From assembly GCA_020053475.1 (NCBI GenBank), contig JAGVNC010000008.1, forward strand, positions 1 through 55,030: a stretch of 55,030 nucleotides of DNA, in the 5' to 3' direction. This DNA is from Candidatus Omnitrophota bacterium (GTDB lineage Bacteria > Omnitrophota > Gorgyraeia > Zapsychrales > Zapsychraceae). Positions 3,382-48,229 of the stretch are shown here, in pieces (the stretch's first letter is position 1; each line of letters opens with the position of its first letter). The position numbers and the translations under genes were made by a program. The notes beneath the pieces are model-generated. The model saw nothing but the letters and a program-made list of their open reading frames with translations. It did not search any database and was not told the DNA's origin.

Positions 3382-4059
3382 ATGTATTATTGGAATGAAA
3401 TATTGTTGGTTCCCGCAAAAACAATTCTTGCCCAGGTCAGTCAATTTATCGTTAGTGTCCTCCTCGTTCTTCTTCTTCTAATCGTCGGCTGGGCCATCTC
3501 CACATTTATCATCAAGGCGGGGGTTACGCGGCTGTTAAAGATTTTGAAATTAGATGAACTCGCCGATCGGATTGAGTTAACCGGCATCTTGAGCAAGGGC
3601 GGGGTTAAGTACTCCCTCTCCGAGCTCGTGGGAGAAACCGCGTATTGGTTATCCATTCTGATCACGTTTGTCGTTGCCTTGAACGCCGCGGGGCTGACGA
3701 TTGCCGCCGATCTTTTACAGAGGATCGGGCTTTTTGTCCCCAACGTGATCGCCGCCATCTTCATCCTGATTGCCGGGATGTTTTTGGCCGTCGTCATGAG
3801 GAATATCGTGATCACCTCCGCCAGTAACGCTGGTTTTTCTCAAGTCAACCTTTTCGGGAAAATCACCGAAATTGTGATCGGCGTATTTGCTGTTGCGATG
3901 GCTTTAGAGCAGCTGCAAATCGGGGCCATGATTATTCAAATGACGGTCACCATTATCTTGGGATCCCTTGGGTTAGGCTTCGCGTTAGCCTTTGGGTTGG
4001 GGTGCAAGGATATTGTGGGGAAATCCGTTGAGAAGATTCTTCAAGAGCTGAAGAAGTGA
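3382..4059 (+). CDS. Small MscS/CmpX-like membrane protein (conserved TM-helix family), paralogue 1
   Basis: 225 residues with a perfect ribosome binding site (AAGGAGG, 3368-3374) before the ATG. I see about five hydrophobic segments, at roughly 20-47, 80-102, 112-140, 155-175 and 180-205. The last contains LGLGFALAFGLGCKDIVGK, the signature of the conserved TM helix family (Pfam TM_helix, as in CmpX) related to the pore of MscS channels. The cytoplasmic beta domain of MscS is absent, so gating by tension is not certain. Two paralogues are at 46544-47212 and 47570-48229. The 270-bp upstream stretch holds no gene that I can support. Confidence 0.75.
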   Translation: MYYWNEILLVPAKTILAQVSQFIVSVLLVLLLLIVGWAISTFIIKAGVTRLLKILKLDELADRIELTGILSKGGVKYSLSELVGETAYWLSILITFVVALNAAGLTIAADLLQRIGLFVPNVIAAIFILIAGMFLAVVMRNIVITSASNAGFSQVNLFGKITEIVIGVFAVAMALEQLQIGAMIIQMTVTIILGSLGLGFALAFGLGCKDIVGKSVEKILQELKK

Positions 4060-19969: not shown

Positions 19970-20066
19970 CCATCGGCAGCTGGCTACCCTGTATCCGTCA
20001 AGAACGGATGAGGGTCCTATAGCTTTGCGCCCTACTCTTACGAGCAGTTTGCCTTTATCAACGGTG
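19970..20066 (-). promoter_or_regulatory. Cyclic-di-GMP-I (GEMM-I) riboswitch A
   Basis: Read on the minus strand, the P1 arm CCGTTG (from 20064) pairs with CGATGG at the end; GGCAAAC, then a stem-loop, GGGCGCAAAGC, a second stem, a hairpin and GGGTAGCCAGCTGCCGATGG follow in the order and spacing of the GEMM-I consensus (GGCAAACC, GGGACGCAAAGCC, GGUAGC-GGUUACCG). The tetraloop-receptor and ligand-pocket elements are recognisable. The class binds c-di-GMP (established knowledge). It is followed by a terminator and then the giant gene A. Confidence 0.93.
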
Positions 20067-25995: not shown

Positions 25996-26091
25996 CCATT
26001 GGTAACTGGCAACCCTTGATCTGTAACGCAGATCGGAGGGCCCTTTAGCTTTGCGTCCCGCTCTTTCGAACGGTTTGCCCTGTATCAATAG
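25996..26091 (-). promoter_or_regulatory. Cyclic-di-GMP-I (GEMM-I) riboswitch B
   Basis: On the minus strand P1 CTATTG (26091-26086) pairs with CAATGG (26001-25996). Between them are CAGGGCAAACC, a loop with CGAAAG (a GNRA tetraloop), GCGGGACGCAAAGC, a hairpin built on GATCTGCG/CAGATC, and GGGTTGCCAGTTACC. This matches the GEMM-I consensus even better than riboswitch A. The 70 bases to the start codon hold only a weak AU-rich hairpin (CTTATTT/AAATAGG, about 25977-25957) followed by CCTTTTG, so the output could be weak termination or translational. Confidence 0.93.
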
Positions 26092-42567: not shown

Positions 42568-43305
42568 ATGATTACAACTCAGCACGTTTATAAATATTTC
42601 GGGACACAGGCCGCTTTGCAGGATGTTTCCTTTGACATCAATCCAGGCGAGATTGTCGGGTTTTTAGGCCCCAACGGCGCTGGGAAAACGACGTTAATGC
42701 GTGTGCTGACCACGTATTTGCCGGCGTCACGCGGCAAAGTCTTCATCGCCGGCATCGATATTGACCGGGAGCCTCTCAAGGTTTGCAGCAAGATCGGGTA
42801 TTTGTCCGAAACCCCTCCGTTGTATTATCATTTGACCGTCGCTGAATATCTGCTGTTTGCGGCGCAGCTCAAAGACGTGCCGGCCCGCGACCAACGACGA
42901 CGGTTGGAGACGGTATTAGCGCAGTGCCAGTTAGAGAATGTCCGATCGACATTGATTCAGCATCTGTCGAGGGGATTTAAACAACGCGTAGGGATTGCCC
43001 AGGCGCTTATTCATGACCCCACCGTGTTGATCTTGGACGAACCAACTAATGGGTTGGATCCCGTGCAGATTTTACAGGTGCGTCACTTGATCCAAAGCCT
43101 GCGGGAAAAACGGACCGTTATTTTAAGCACGCACATTCTCTCCGAAATTGAGCAACTCGCCCAGCGGATCCTCATCATTGAATCGGGACGGATTATCGCC
43201 GATGATCGCTTGGATCTTTTGTTAAGTCGGTATCCTCAAAGAAATCTTGAGAGTATTTTTTTAAGTTTAGTTGCGCAGCGGGCGGAAGGGAACGAGTATG
43301 TCTAA
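42568..43305 (+). CDS. ABC transporter ATP-binding protein (GldA-like)
   Basis: 245 residues. Walker A GPNGAGKTT at 34-42, Q-loop LSETPPLYYHLTV, signature LSRGFKQRVGIAQAL, Walker B VLILDEPTNGLDP, switch His in STHILSEIE. With the GldF-like permease and the GldG-like protein that follow, it forms the three-gene unit known from gliding-motility loci and from many non-gliding bacteria; the cargo is unknown. Confidence 0.92.
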   Translation: MITTQHVYKYFGTQAALQDVSFDINPGEIVGFLGPNGAGKTTLMRVLTTYLPASRGKVFIAGIDIDREPLKVCSKIGYLSETPPLYYHLTVAEYLLFAAQLKDVPARDQRRRLETVLAQCQLENVRSTLIQHLSRGFKQRVGIAQALIHDPTVLILDEPTNGLDPVQILQVRHLIQSLREKRTVILSTHILSEIEQLAQRILIIESGRIIADDRLDLLLSRYPQRNLESIFLSLVAQRAEGNEYV

Positions 43306-44008
43306 GGTGTTAGCGATTGCCCGGAAAGAATTAATGACGCTGTTCAGCTCTCCGGTGGCGTATATTGTCTTGATTTTGGCGATGGGTGTTTTTAATATTT
43401 TCTTTTATATGATTGTCGATGGTAATCGCGAGGCAACATTACGCGATATTTTCAGCATCATGGAATTCATCTTTGTTTTTTTAATGCCAATTCTCACGAT
43501 GAAAATTTTTGCCGAAGAGAAACAAAACGGCACCATGGAATTCTTGATGACCACCCCGACGACCAACAGTCAAATTGTCCTGGGAAAATATTTTGGCTAT
43601 CTTGTCTTTTTCTCATTTTTAATTTTTCTCACAGGAATTTACTATGTCATTTTGGAGGGGTTTGCCCAGCCGGACCGCTGGACAATTCTCATTGGATATT
43701 TGGGTATTTGGTTGGAGGGGGCCTTTTTTCTAGCGGTTGGGATGCTGATCTCGTCCTGGACGCGGCACCAGATGGTGGCGGCCATGGGGGCGTATATCTT
43801 TTTATTCATGCTGTATTTTTCGATCAGTTTTATTCAATATTGTTCTGGGTCATTGCAAACGATGGTCCGTTTCTTAAGCACGTGGAGTCATTTGGAAAAT
43901 TTTTCCTCCGGCTTATTTACATCGGCCGATGTCATTTATTATCTCAGTGGAATCGGTCTTTGTTTGGCGTTAACGCGATTAAGCATTGAGAACAGATTAT
44001 GGCGCTAA
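43298..44008 (+). CDS. ABC-2 type permease (GldF-like)
   Basis: 236 residues from ATG 43298, overlapping the ATPase gene by eight bases. KVLAIARKELMTLFSSPVAYIVLILAMGVFNIFFY opens the ABC-2 permease; six membrane segments, with the conserved EEKQNGTMEFLMTTPTTNSQIVLGKYFGYL between segments 2 and 3. Overlaps the GldG-like gene by ten bases. Confidence 0.9.
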   Translation: MSKVLAIARKELMTLFSSPVAYIVLILAMGVFNIFFYMIVDGNREATLRDIFSIMEFIFVFLMPILTMKIFAEEKQNGTMEFLMTTPTTNSQIVLGKYFGYLVFFSFLIFLTGIYYVILEGFAQPDRWTILIGYLGIWLEGAFFLAVGMLISSWTRHQMVAAMGAYIFLFMLYFSISFIQYCSGSLQTMVRFLSTWSHLENFSSGLFTSADVIYYLSGIGLCLALTRLSIENRLWR

Positions 44009-45594
44009 AAAAGAACTATTTGGTTATTGTTGGATTAATCGGGTTGGGGGTTTTAGCCCTAGGATACGGATTGGGCCTCTCGCACGTGGAGCAACGGTTG
44101 ACGACCCTAACTCTGTTGGCCACGATCGTCGGAGTCTTGGCGCTGGGAGCTGCCGCTTGGCTCATGAATCGTCATGCCCATCAACCAATGATTGCTTTCC
44201 CTTGGAAAAAAACGATCGTGATGGCCGCGATTGTTGTTCTGTCCTTTGTTTTATTCGCATTATTGAATTATGTGTCTTCGATTTATAATGTTCGATGGGA
44301 CGCCACCAAGTTTAAACAACATACGTTGACCTCGAAGACAAAAGGCGTCCTCCAAGATCTCACCGAGAATGTCGCCATTACGATTTTTTATGTGGGGTTA
44401 CCCCCAAAATATTTGGATGACCTATTAAAGGAATATGAGCGCCAATCCCAAGGGAAAGTAAAGACGGAAATCGTGGATCCCTTAGTCCAATTAGGATATG
44501 CGGCGCAGTTCGGACGCGTTGTTAAGGCGGATGAAAAGAAAGCTTTTGTGCGTAGTGGTCACGAAGAAAGGGAGATCAATTTCGGGGATCAGCCGCTCAC
44601 TGAAGAAATGCTCACCAATACGGTCCTACGCATTACGCGAAAAGCTCGTACGGCCTGTTTTCTGACGGGGCATAAAGAATTGCCAGTGTTTGATAAAAGC
44701 GAAACAGGCCTGACAACGCTGGTGAAATTGTTGTTGGGAAACAACATTGTCGTTAAAGAATTATTCTTGCGGATGGAAAGCAATATCCCCGACGATTGCG
44801 CTGTGTTGGTCATCGCCGGGCCGCAGGAATTTCTATCCCCCGAAGAAGAAGCCATGGTCCGCGATTATTTATCCAAAGGAGGCGATGCGTTATTTTTGAT
44901 TGAGCACACGCTCATAACGACACCTGAGAAGCCGCTAACTCCTGAAGAAATGGATAAAAATCCGTCGCTGAATAGTATTTTAAATGAGTGGGGAATTCAT
45001 GTGGCCAACGATATTGTCGTCGATTTGGCCAGCCACGCGAGCGGCGATCCGGGGAGTCCGGCCACGCGCAATTACATGCCGCATGAAGCATTGGTGAAGG
45101 AATTGGATTATACATTTTATGTCCGTCCCCGATCCATCTCGATCACCTTACAGCGTCGGCCGACTATTAAAGTTGTCCCGTTTGTGTTGACGGCTTCCAA
45201 AGAGGTGAGCTGGGGCGAAACCAATCGACTGTTGACCGTCAAATTTAATCCCGAAGAAGACAGGATGGGGCCCGTGCCCATCTCGGTGGTGGCGTGGGAA
45301 CCGCGCACTCCGGACAATGGAAAGATATCGGACACTCGCTTGATTGTCTTTACGGACGCTGATTTTTTAACGAATGCCTATATTGGTCAATTCAGCAATG
45401 CCCGAATGGGGTTGAATGTGATTAGCTGGCTGGCTGAATTGGACTACGAACCTTTTGTCGATCAGGAAGAAATTAAAGTCGAGCGGTTAGACCTGACCAG
45501 CCAACAAAAACGGATGATTGCTGTTTGGTTGATACTTTTACCGGTCTTGATCGCGACGATGGGGATTTTGGTTTGGGTGAAAAAGAATGTTTAG
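43999..45594 (+). CDS. GldG-like ABC auxiliary protein
   Basis: 531 residues. Three N-terminal membrane segments (about 7-27, 32-55 and 73-95), a large periplasmic part with RWDATKFKQHTLTSKTKGVLQDLTENVAITIFYV (ABC_transp_aux/DUF4350-type start), VLRITRKARTACFLTGHKE, CAVLVIAGPQEFLSPEEEAMVRDYLSKGGDALFLIE and FTDADFLTNAYI, and one C-terminal anchor (about 505-527). It belongs to the GldF/GldG module; the soluble part has a class-I glutamine-amidotransferase-like fold without catalysis. Confidence 0.88.
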   Translation: MALKKNYLVIVGLIGLGVLALGYGLGLSHVEQRLTTLTLLATIVGVLALGAAAWLMNRHAHQPMIAFPWKKTIVMAAIVVLSFVLFALLNYVSSIYNVRWDATKFKQHTLTSKTKGVLQDLTENVAITIFYVGLPPKYLDDLLKEYERQSQGKVKTEIVDPLVQLGYAAQFGRVVKADEKKAFVRSGHEEREINFGDQPLTEEMLTNTVLRITRKARTACFLTGHKELPVFDKSETGLTTLVKLLLGNNIVVKELFLRMESNIPDDCAVLVIAGPQEFLSPEEEAMVRDYLSKGGDALFLIEHTLITTPEKPLTPEEMDKNPSLNSILNEWGIHVANDIVVDLASHASGDPGSPATRNYMPHEALVKELDYTFYVRPRSISITLQRRPTIKVVPFVLTASKEVSWGETNRLLTVKFNPEEDRMGPVPISVVAWEPRTPDNGKISDTRLIVFTDADFLTNAYIGQFSNARMGLNVISWLAELDYEPFVDQEEIKVERLDLTSQQKRMIAVWLILLPVLIATMGILVWVKKNV

Positions 45595-46318
45595 AAAGTT
45601 CATGAAGATGGGAATTTCGGTATTTGTTGTTAGCGGCTTGATTGGGGCTAATCAAGTTCATGCCCAAGAGCAAGATATAGGAATGCAGTTTTATGACATC
45701 GATAAGATCGTCGAACAATTTGAGCTGCTTTCTTCCTCCGAGTGCAATCAATTAAAGGCCCTAGTGGATGGATTAGACCCGAGGGAAGAAGGTTATCCGA
45801 CGTTGGCCAGGATTTCCCAGAAGATAGACCGTAAAGTCCGGAAGGATCTATTGTCTTTTGAAGATTTATTTTTTCATGTGCGCAAATTTGTGGACAGCGA
45901 ATATGTTGACGCCATTGCCTCTATTCGGGAGGTAGAATTAAGCCAAACGGAAAATTATTTTGAGAGAATTAAAGAGAATTTTGTCGAAGTTCATCCAGCA
46001 TTCCCTGAACATGGCGTGGAGGCCAGCAGTGCCCAGACGTTGGAGGCCATCCAGGAATCAGCCGCTCTTCTAACTGGCAATGGTGCTTCTCCAAGCATCC
46101 CTGAATTATGGGCAGAAGTGCAGGCGATCCTAATTCCTGTGTATTCCAAATGGAACCGGAGAATGGCCGAACTTCAGAAAAAAGTCGACCTGAACCAAAA
46201 ACCTGATCAGAAGCGGAATAATATCCTTACGCATGATGAATTATTCTTTGTGGATACGTTTACGAAGATTCAAGCAGCCTTACGAAGATTTGCCCCTGCT
46301 GGTTCCAGCCTATTTTAA
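45587..46318 (+). CDS. Exported protein of unknown function
   Basis: 243 residues, overlapping the GldG-like gene by eight bases, so it belongs to that operon. Signal peptide 1-26 (MGISVFVVSGLIGANQVHAQ). The mature part is helical and charged (CNQLKALVDGLDPREEGYPTLARISQKIDRKVRKDLLSFEDLFFHVRKF; SYSKWNRRMAELQKKVDLNQK). No known domain or catalytic motif. A periplasmic partner of the ABC module is plausible. Confidence 0.75.
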   Translation: MFRKFMKMGISVFVVSGLIGANQVHAQEQDIGMQFYDIDKIVEQFELLSSSECNQLKALVDGLDPREEGYPTLARISQKIDRKVRKDLLSFEDLFFHVRKFVDSEYVDAIASIREVELSQTENYFERIKENFVEVHPAFPEHGVEASSAQTLEAIQESAALLTGNGASPSIPELWAEVQAILIPVYSKWNRRMAELQKKVDLNQKPDQKRNNILTHDELFFVDTFTKIQAALRRFAPAGSSLF

Positions 46319-46347: not shown

Positions 46348-46386
46348 CGACGGGTGCCCCCACACATAGGTATTTAAAAGGATTGT

Positions 46387-46395
46387 TGCTATAAT
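46387..46395 (+). promoter_or_regulatory. Extended -10 promoter of the membrane peptide and MscS-like gene
   Basis: TGCTATAAT (TATAAT at 46390-46395) without a good -35 box. The start near 46402 gives a leader of about 45 bases to the membrane peptide. Confidence 0.5.
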
Positions 46396-46446
46396 AAAGC
46401 CGTTCGTTAAATCATTAAATCAGAAAGGATAAGGAGGTGATTCAAT

Positions 46447-46542
46447 ATTAAGAAAGAACTCATTCTTCTCGTGGGTTTTCTTTTTTTAATATTGTTGGCC
46501 GATTTTGGATATCGGCTCAAAAAAACAAAAGGGGGGAAATAA
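46447..46542 (+). CDS. 31-residue single-span membrane peptide with apparent AUU start
   Basis: A frame read ATT AAG AAA GAA ... TAA follows an exceptionally strong ribosome site, AAGGAGGTGA (46431-46440). The peptide reads (M)KKELILLVGFLFLILLADFGY followed by RLKKTKGGK: one membrane span flanked by lysines. No ATG, GTG or TTG opens this frame after the upstream stop; the only fitting initiation codon is ATT at 46447, as used by infC. The stop is one base before the ATG of the MscS-like gene, whose own ribosome site (AGGGGGGAAA) lies in the last codons, so translation is probably coupled. Function unknown; a partner subunit of the channel-like protein is inference. Confidence 0.6.
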   Translation: MKKELILLVGFLFLILLADFGYRLKKTKGGK

Positions 46543-46543
46543 T

Positions 46544-47212
46544 ATGGTTTATCAAACGCTGGTCATTGATCCGTTGCGTGAAATGACTTCTTTGGTATTC
46601 AGCTTTGTTCCACCGATCGTTACCGCCTTCTGTCTCTTGATTCTTGGATGCATCATTGTCAAATTCATCGAACGGTTGATCGTCTCATTCTTGACGACGA
46701 TCAAGTTCGATACGCTCTCTGAACGTCTCGGCCTCGTGCGTATTCTGGAAACAGGCGATATCCGACGCAAGCCTAGCCATCTTTTTGCTTCTTTCGCCTA
46801 CTTGGTCTTGATGATGATGGTCCTCATCGTCACCGTCAGGGCGATGGGCTTGCCGATTACAACCAATGTTGTGGATCGTCTTTTGCTCTACATCCCTAAT
46901 GTCATCACAGGCGTCCTTGTCCTTATCATCGGGATGCTGATGGCAAAACTGATCTCGGGGATCATTTTTGTCATTGCCAAGAATACCGACATGCCAGTTC
47001 CTACGACGTTGGCCCGATTATCAAAATGGGTTATTCTGGTCTATATCACGATTCTCTTTTTAACGGAGATCGGGTTCATTGCCCTCTTTGCAGGAGAAAC
47101 ATACACGATTTTTATCGGAGGGTTTATTTTCGCTTTGGCCTTGGCGTTTGGCCTAGCGGGCCGGGATATTGCCGCTAAGTATTTGGAAGTTTTTAAGCGT
47201 TCCGGAGCCTAA
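46544..47212 (+). CDS. Small MscS/CmpX-like membrane protein, paralogue 2
   Basis: 222 residues. Starts MVYQTLVIDPLREMTSLVFSFVPPIVTAFCLLILG; five hydrophobic segments; ends with IFIGGFIFALALAFGLAGRDIAAKYLEVF, the conserved TM helix motif. The central LLLYIPNVITGVLVLIIGMLMAKLI matches paralogues 1 and 3. No beta domain. Preceded by the 31-residue membrane peptide. Confidence 0.8.
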   Translation: MVYQTLVIDPLREMTSLVFSFVPPIVTAFCLLILGCIIVKFIERLIVSFLTTIKFDTLSERLGLVRILETGDIRRKPSHLFASFAYLVLMMMVLIVTVRAMGLPITTNVVDRLLLYIPNVITGVLVLIIGMLMAKLISGIIFVIAKNTDMPVPTTLARLSKWVILVYITILFLTEIGFIALFAGETYTIFIGGFIFALALAFGLAGRDIAAKYLEVFKRSGA

Positions 47213-47241: not shown

Positions 47242-47553
47242 ATGGCTGCCTAAAAAGGGCAGCCATCGCTTTAATGAAAAGCTGAAATTGAATTGAGTTA
47301 TTTATAAGTCATTGTTAGGCAATGACTTATGTTCTCAGTTTTATAATCATTACTAAACCAATCATGTTGTGGAGAAAAAGAAAAGGCTTTCTTGGCGTTA
47401 ATGCCTAAGCCTTGGTGTTAGGCTGATTTTGTGGTACAGTTTAAGTGTAGGATACTAAGACAGCACGTGGTTTCATTCAAGCCGATACTCAGTATCGGCT
47501 TCGGCATTAGTAGGGGCCGCGAACAACGCTTAAATCAGCGAAAGCTGTTTAAG
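47242..47553 (+). other. Hairpin-rich intergenic region and leader
   Basis: The 357 bp between paralogues 2 and 3 hold no gene but five clear hairpins: 47242-47266 (9-bp stem), 47304-47330 (11-bp perfect stem), 47383-47413, 47479-47501 (11-bp stem with one-base loop centre) and 47529-47553 (10-bp stem with GAAA tetraloop). The last ends right at the AAAGGAGGG ribosome site of paralogue 3. The two last hairpins are downstream of the promoter at 47429 and so in the 5' leader RNA. Confidence 0.6.
47429..47456 (+). promoter_or_regulatory. Promoter candidate of paralogue 3
   Basis: TTGTGG (47429-47434), 16 bp, GATACT (47451-47456). It gives a structured leader of about 107 bases. Confidence 0.4.
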
Positions 47554-47569: not shown

Positions 47570-48229
47570 ATGATGTTAGATACCTTAGTGATCCAGCCAT
47601 TGAAAGAAATGGCGTCCACCGTAGGTAGTTATATCCCCACGTTGTTGATTGGGTTAGCTATCCTTGCCGGTGGGTGGATCGTCTCACGGTTCGTCCGTAA
47701 GACATTAACGCATCTGTTGACTACCATCCACTTTGATAAACTAGCTCACGAAGTGGGAATCGCCCGAACCTTAAGGATCGGGGGACTCAAGCATAAGCCT
47801 GCAGAAGTTTTCAGCTGCATCGTTTATACGGTGCTGATGGTTATGACATTGATCATGTCCGTCAAGGCTTTGGGCTTCACGATTGCTGATGAACTCATCG
47901 GCAAAATCTTCTCTTATGTGCCTAGTGTCGTTACCGGTGTTGTTGTCTTGATCATCGGGATGCTCTTGGCCAAATTCGTTTCCGTCCTAGTGTATATCAC
48001 GGCGAAGAATACGGATATGCCGGCTCCGGAAACATTAAGAGATGTGACCAAACTGGTCATCGTGGCTTATGTAGGCATCATCTTCTTAAGAGAAATCGGT
48101 TTTCTTACTCTGTTCACAGATCATTATTCTCTTTTCATTGGAGGGATTATTTTTGCTTTGGCTTTATCTTTTGGGTTAGCCGGCAAAGATGTTGCATCCA
48201 AATACCTCCATGTGTTAGATAAGAAATAA
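47570..48229 (+). CDS. Small MscS/CmpX-like membrane protein, paralogue 3
   Basis: 219 residues (ATG 47570; ATG 47573 also possible) with AAAGGAGGG eight bases upstream. Closest to paralogue 2: LDTLVIQPLKEMASTVGSYIPTLLIG, FSYVPSVVTGVVVLIIGMLLAKFVSVLVYITAKNTDMPAPETL, and SLFIGGIIFALALSFGLAGKDVASKYL. Five membrane segments and no cytoplasmic beta domain. The two genes seem to be a tandem duplication that acquired separate leaders. Confidence 0.8.
   Translation: MMLDTLVIQPLKEMASTVGSYIPTLLIGLAILAGGWIVSRFVRKTLTHLLTTIHFDKLAHEVGIARTLRIGGLKHKPAEVFSCIVYTVLMVMTLIMSVKALGFTIADELIGKIFSYVPSVVTGVVVLIIGMLLAKFVSVLVYITAKNTDMPAPETLRDVTKLVIVAYVGIIFLREIGFLTLFTDHYSLFIGGIIFALALSFGLAGKDVASKYLHVLDKK

Follow-up and report, generated by a model that had tools for sequence, protein, structure and literature searches.

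Does the leader of an MscS-like gene from an uncultivated bacterial lineage hold a short translated reading frame that begins with AUU, or is that frame an accident of a structured but untranslated leader? The question arises at one locus of a 55,030-nucleotide stretch of DNA (the window), which corresponds to contig C41 in a draft genome (2.03 Mb, 109 contigs) from the Omnitrophota, a phylum that, to our knowledge, is not known from culture. AUU is the start codon of pcnB. At the present locus, the initial annotation proposed that a strong ribosome-binding site is followed by an ATT opening a 31-codon frame that encodes a small membrane peptide and is coupled to the MscS-like gene just downstream, designated P1 here.

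The label MscS-like is partly justified for P1. The protein matches the conserved transmembrane helix family PF05552 (59.2 bits, cut-off 22), so that the description holds for the transmembrane part, but it scores 71.9 bits against the NCBIfam msc channel model, under the cut-off of 100, and the domain search returned no further MscS Pfam domain. P1 is followed by a paralogue, P2 (Table 1). More distantly related is a third MscS-like paralogue at 3397–4035, about 28% identical to P1 and preceded by AAGGAGGTTA. Directly upstream of the locus, at 42568–45594, is an ABC transporter gene set resembling gldA–gldG, with scores below the NCBIfam cut-offs.

The geometry of the frame is exactly as first described. 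Six bases separate the ribosome site AAGGAGGTGA from the ATT at 46447–46449, the frame is then open as far as an AAA codon at 46537–46539, the TAA stop occupies 46540–46542 and, after a single intervening T, P1 opens with an ATG at 46544. The predicted peptide, which after the start codon reads KKELILLVGFLFLILLADFGYRLKKTKGGK, bears out the proposed single membrane span with flanking lysines. It was also correctly stated that no standard start fits: an in-frame TGA (46438–46440) lies within the upstream ribosome site, and the only standard starts in the frame, GTG at 46471 and TTG at 46492 and 46495, are all located inside the span and lack a ribosome site. The ATT thus lies 9 bases after GGAGG with no standard start at a usable distance, as would be looked for in a near-cognate start. 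The proposed coupling to P1 has fared less well, since P1 has its own Shine–Dalgarno (SD) site and has no need of coupling to an upstream frame.

Table 1. Features of the P1 locus, with coordinates in the window
Feature	Position	Strand	Basis
Promoter-like element CACACATAGGT, then TATAAT (46390–46395), with 17 bases between TAGGTA and TATAAT	46361–46395	+	Pattern search
Extended Shine–Dalgarno site AAGGAGGTGA(T)	46431–46440	+	Duplex of −18.2 kcal/mol with own 16S tail
5′ arm of predicted helix over AUU, pairs with 46482–46494	46443–46455	+	13-nt inverted repeat, prediction
Candidate upstream ORF of 31 codons (ATT start, TAA stop), one membrane span flanked by lysines	46447–46542	+	Sequence; chance tests
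U-tract, predicted to pair with A-tract 46519–46530 or G-rich P1 SD	46476–46487	+	Prediction
Leader hairpin GCCGAT-N7-ATCGGC, within the ORF	46498–46516	+	Two places in genome
P1's own ribosome site GGGGGG	46531–46536	+	−12.4 kcal/mol; position matches relatives' GGAGGGG
P1, 222 amino acids, MscS-type conserved transmembrane helices	46544–47212	+	PF05552
P2, P1 paralogue, 47% identical, own structured leader, no mini-ORF	47570–48229	+	Sequence comparison

The description of the upstream ribosome site as very strong is well founded. Its duplex with the 16S tail of the same genome (locus L031) surpasses that of every other start scored in the window, P2 coming second at −16.8 kcal/mol and P1 reaching −12.4 kcal/mol; when longer flanks are included, the site reaches −19.8 kcal/mol vs −11.5 to −17.3 kcal/mol for twelve infC sites. 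The 2.03 Mb genome contains five copies of the 10-mer AAGGAGGTGA. Besides the one in the P1 leader, two stand at genes starting with ATG, one is at the end of the 16S gene and one lies in a promoter-like spacer ahead of a pilin-like gene. Simple arithmetic gives an expectation of about four copies for a random 10-mer, and as the count is close to chance, the motif by itself is no proof of a gene. The spacing of 9 bases between GGAGG and ATT is longish; 14 of the 99 AGGAGG–ATG matches in the genome have the same spacing.

How plausible is an AUU start in this lineage? The infC gene could be located in 12 of the 14 Omnitrophota genomes searched (loci L157–L168). Its start codon is ATT in nine of the 12 and ATC in three, lying 6–8 bases after GGAGG, and the infC gene of the P1 genome itself (L168) begins with ATC. 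At ten of these loci, the region from the upstream stop to the conserved portion of the gene contains no ATG, GTG or TTG; the exceptions are L163, where an ATG follows GGAGG at a distance of two bases, and L164, where a GTG falls within the SD. With ATT or ATC at 12 of 12 loci, the lineage has at least one gene for which a near-cognate start behind a strong SD is the norm, and to this extent the AUU start put forward for the P1 leader is plausible. Such starts are not in general use: genome-wide, the arrangement AGGAGG-N6-10-ATT is not enriched (65 matches vs 103 for a reversed-pattern control); the corresponding figures for AGGAGG–ATG, which is enriched, are 99 and 35.

Several tests bear on whether a frame of this kind would arise by chance. 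In 5000 dinucleotide shuffles of the leader, no frame of at least 25 codons arose that encoded a membrane span and stopped close to the ATG, and with the ATT held fixed, a fraction of 0.0006 of 5000 shuffles yielded a comparable span. Among 107 other leaders of the gene family, a single one (L016) has a span-encoding frame near the gene, and this stops 57 bases short of the part of the gene that was matched. The survey comprised 108 leaders including that of P1, but L047–L057 duplicate organisms represented by L002–L012 and several leaders are clipped by contig ends, so the independent leaders are fewer than 108. Codon log-odds, with the codon usage of seven neighbouring ORFs as the reference, were +6.1 for the ATT frame vs −7.6 and −4.4 for the other two frames, values that come from a small sample of 30 codons.

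Conservation of the frame in relatives, the lack of which the initial annotation had itself named as grounds for refutation, was looked for and is absent everywhere: the leaders of all P1 homologues examined lack the ATT frame, these homologues being at most 52% identical to P1, so that no relative is near enough to be decisive. Within the family the P1 homologues are 46–52% identical, and an alignment-based search of genome contigs returned the same Omnitrophota as the nearest. No closer relative of P1 was found either in 384 genomes of the phylum or by searching genome contigs with P1 alone. Searches for the peptide turned up no convincing homologue: the lowest E values were 0.16 among 31 further genomes of the family and 0.033 per genome among 383 further genomes of the phylum. 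Some eight weak peptide matches were inspected and turned out to be situated in unrelated frames; they were accordingly taken as chance. Two features that might have been expected, the conserved start of known AUU-type genes and the conserved leader ORF of translational attenuators, are thus both lacking among the homologues examined, none of which is of the same genus. The main weakness of any case for translation is that the frame appears, at best, to be specific to one lineage. The gene at 45587–46318, upstream of the leader, has homologues in two of 31 other family genomes (26–28% identical) and is uninformative for the leader.

Beneath the frame lie elements that the initial annotation, whilst correct about the frame, had missed: the frame overlies a structured leader that is shared with the paralogue P2. 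The hairpin GCCGAT-N7-ATCGGC, which was spotted before its genome-wide count was made, occurs at two places in the 2.03 Mb genome only, in the P1 leader and at 47481–47499 in the P2 leader. In eight relatives (L002, L003, L005, L006, L007, L008, L009 and L011, with P1, P2, L004, L010 and L012 left out of the alignment), a UCAGC...GCUGA stem (UCAGCCGG...CCAGCUGA) with a loop of very variable length stands directly before the SD; no such stem is seen at that position in L004, L012 or P2. Four of its five pairs are invariant and the fifth shows a double change in one sequence, which amounts to little covariation support for the stem. The relatives' ribosome site, GAAAGGAGGGG, occupies the position equivalent to the P1 SD. 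Further upstream, the promoter-like pattern CACANNTAGGT-N16-18-TANNNT is found once in the genome, at the P1 leader, and also precedes the homologous gene in six distinct relatives (L003, L005, L006, L009, L010 and L011); a standard sigma-70 scan did not list the element at 46361–46395. No Rfam family matches the P1 leader, and among the relatives' leaders (ten loci) there was no match at gathering score save for c-di-GMP-I elsewhere in L010, where the riboswitch is near an MscS-like gene. The Rfam matches in the window are two c-di-GMP-I riboswitches, at 19971–20062 and 25998–26089 (minus strand). The upstream ORF therefore overlaps in part with elements that are also present where there is no ORF, and this lends weight to a chance reading of the frame.

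Computed folds suggest a way in which translation of the ORF and access to the P1 SD might be linked. The inverted repeat 46443–46455/46482–46494 (13 nt, 92% complementary) is present in the predicted centroid fold, and since the resulting helix over the AUU shares bases with the U-tract, the two pairings are mutually exclusive. Opening the P1 SD is predicted to cost 0.64 kcal/mol when the leader is free, 6.77 kcal/mol when a ribosome sits at the AUU and 0.65 kcal/mol when the ribosome is further on. A rise as large as that predicted with a ribosome at the AUU was seen in one of 400 shuffles and two of 250 synonymous recodings, although the measure was picked after the real values were known. 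The predicted switch persists across different transcript starts and from 20 to 50 °C, shrinks to 3.1 kcal/mol with a narrower ribosome footprint and is no longer seen for a transcript that runs to 46700 (6.74, 7.36 and 6.41 kcal/mol). Over its full length, the P1 leader does not fold better than its shuffled versions (z −0.83). Because the measure was chosen post hoc and the effect is lost on the longer transcript, we hold the mutually exclusive helices as a best guess for function rather than as a result.

If the switch operates, events at the leader might run as follows. In the free leader, the helix over the AUU would occupy the U-tract, so that the P1 SD stays open. The near-perfect match to the anti-SD would hold 30S subunits at the AUU codon, where initiation would be slow and weak and, by analogy, may be subject to IF3 control. 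A ribosome waiting at the AUU would release the U-tract, which would then shut the P1 SD, and a ribosome elongating through the ORF would cover the U-tract and so reopen it. Translation would yield small amounts of a membrane peptide of 31 residues, possibly with some activity of its own, and the main effect would presumably be on translation of P1.

Parts of this scheme have counterparts in known systems. The erm and cat leader-peptide attenuators combine an upstream ORF with mutually exclusive helices that cover or free a downstream SD, as is predicted for the P1 leader; they respond to stalled elongation, whereas the trigger predicted here would be slow initiation. As to the start codon, the infC genes with AUU, AUC or AUA starts offer the same combination of a near-cognate codon and a strong SD, but they encode IF3 and their start is conserved, whilst the product of the upstream ORF would be unrelated. 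Staphylococcus aureus cvfC1 is reported to begin with AUU after a strong extended SD, to stand first in its operon and to encode a 61-residue protein; the same study gives AUA as the start of infC and ccpN and puts the output of non-canonical starts at about 10% of that of AUG in one medium (PMC13009471). The likeness to cvfC1 extends to the start, the SD, the small product and the leading position. The cvfC1 product, however, may be a zinc finger, is conserved among the staphylococci and has been observed by ribosome profiling, in contrast to the predicted 31 amino acid membrane span considered here, which is not conserved. In Streptomyces, sigR has a GTC start that is repressed by IF3 and is coupled to rsrA (PMC5472188). 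There too the leading gene of a co-transcribed pair with translational coupling has a non-canonical start, which sets the stoichiometry of the two, but the codon and the proteins are others and the effect was shown experimentally. Literature searches on Omnitrophota start codons and on small membrane proteins coupled with mechanosensitive channels yielded nothing on the P1-leader case.

Taken together, these observations lead us to favour, tentatively and with confidence falling somewhat short of even, a translated, lineage-specific upstream ORF that starts at AUU and tunes P1. The strongest SD of those scored, the usable spacing, the rarity of such span frames, the codon log-odds, the infC, cvfC1 and sigR precedents and the predicted switch all point this way; the lack of conservation, the SD that P1 has of its own, the absence of ATT enrichment, the hairpin shared with P2 and the fragility of the folding measure weaken it. 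The main rival, which we consider quite possible if rather doubtful, is that the leader is a structured, untranslated 5′ UTR typical of the family, the stop-free frame arising from the U-tract, the hairpin and the A/G-rich ribosome site of P1, and the upstream SD-like sequence being accidental or a standby docking site. Such an overlap would fit with a non-conserved frame, with a hairpin that recurs only in the ORF-less P2 leader, with the stem before the SD in eight relatives and with a 10-mer that is about as frequent as chance predicts and has one of its five copies in a promoter-like spacer. It must, however, let an 11-base anti-SD match, a usable spacing, a lysine-flanked span and a stop adjoining the ATG all coincide.

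An unlikely alternative in which the peptide itself matters is that the frame is a genuine gene for a small membrane protein that serves P1 as a partner or subunit, its AUU holding the supply below that of the channel protein. The single span, its positive flanks and the stop one base before the P1 ATG would suit such a partner, and in Pseudomonas aeruginosa a gene for a small protein, cfrX, precedes the MscS homologue cmpX on the same transcript (PMC7641640). CfrX has 84 amino acids, however, as against the 31 codons of the frame, and P1 homologues lack such a peptide in every genome examined. It is distinctly improbable that the real start is ATG and the ATT a consensus error or strain variant of the metagenome assembly: the two codons are one base apart and the genome is a draft, but the infC precedent makes ATT plausible. 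Initiation at the AUA at 46445, seven bases after GGAGG, has the merit of a spacing closer to the optimum, but it would open a 14-residue frame that stops in the U-tract and yields a featureless product, and we think it very improbable indeed. Returning to the favoured upstream ORF, it could be taken a step further by regarding the P1 leader as a sensor of initiation speed, in which a strong SD and a poor AUU would park 30S subunits, parking would turn P1 off and the level of IF3 or the capacity for initiation would set the amount of MscS-like protein; we consider this extension improbable.

Whether or not the upstream ORF is translated, gene finders would misplace the ATT or ATC start of infC in Omnitrophota, and the MscS-like genes of this lineage carry a shared structured leader. 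If the ORF is translated, it would add another AUU-started small ORF to infC and pcnB, and would provide a simple case in which the quality of a start codon in a leader could control the neighbouring gene.
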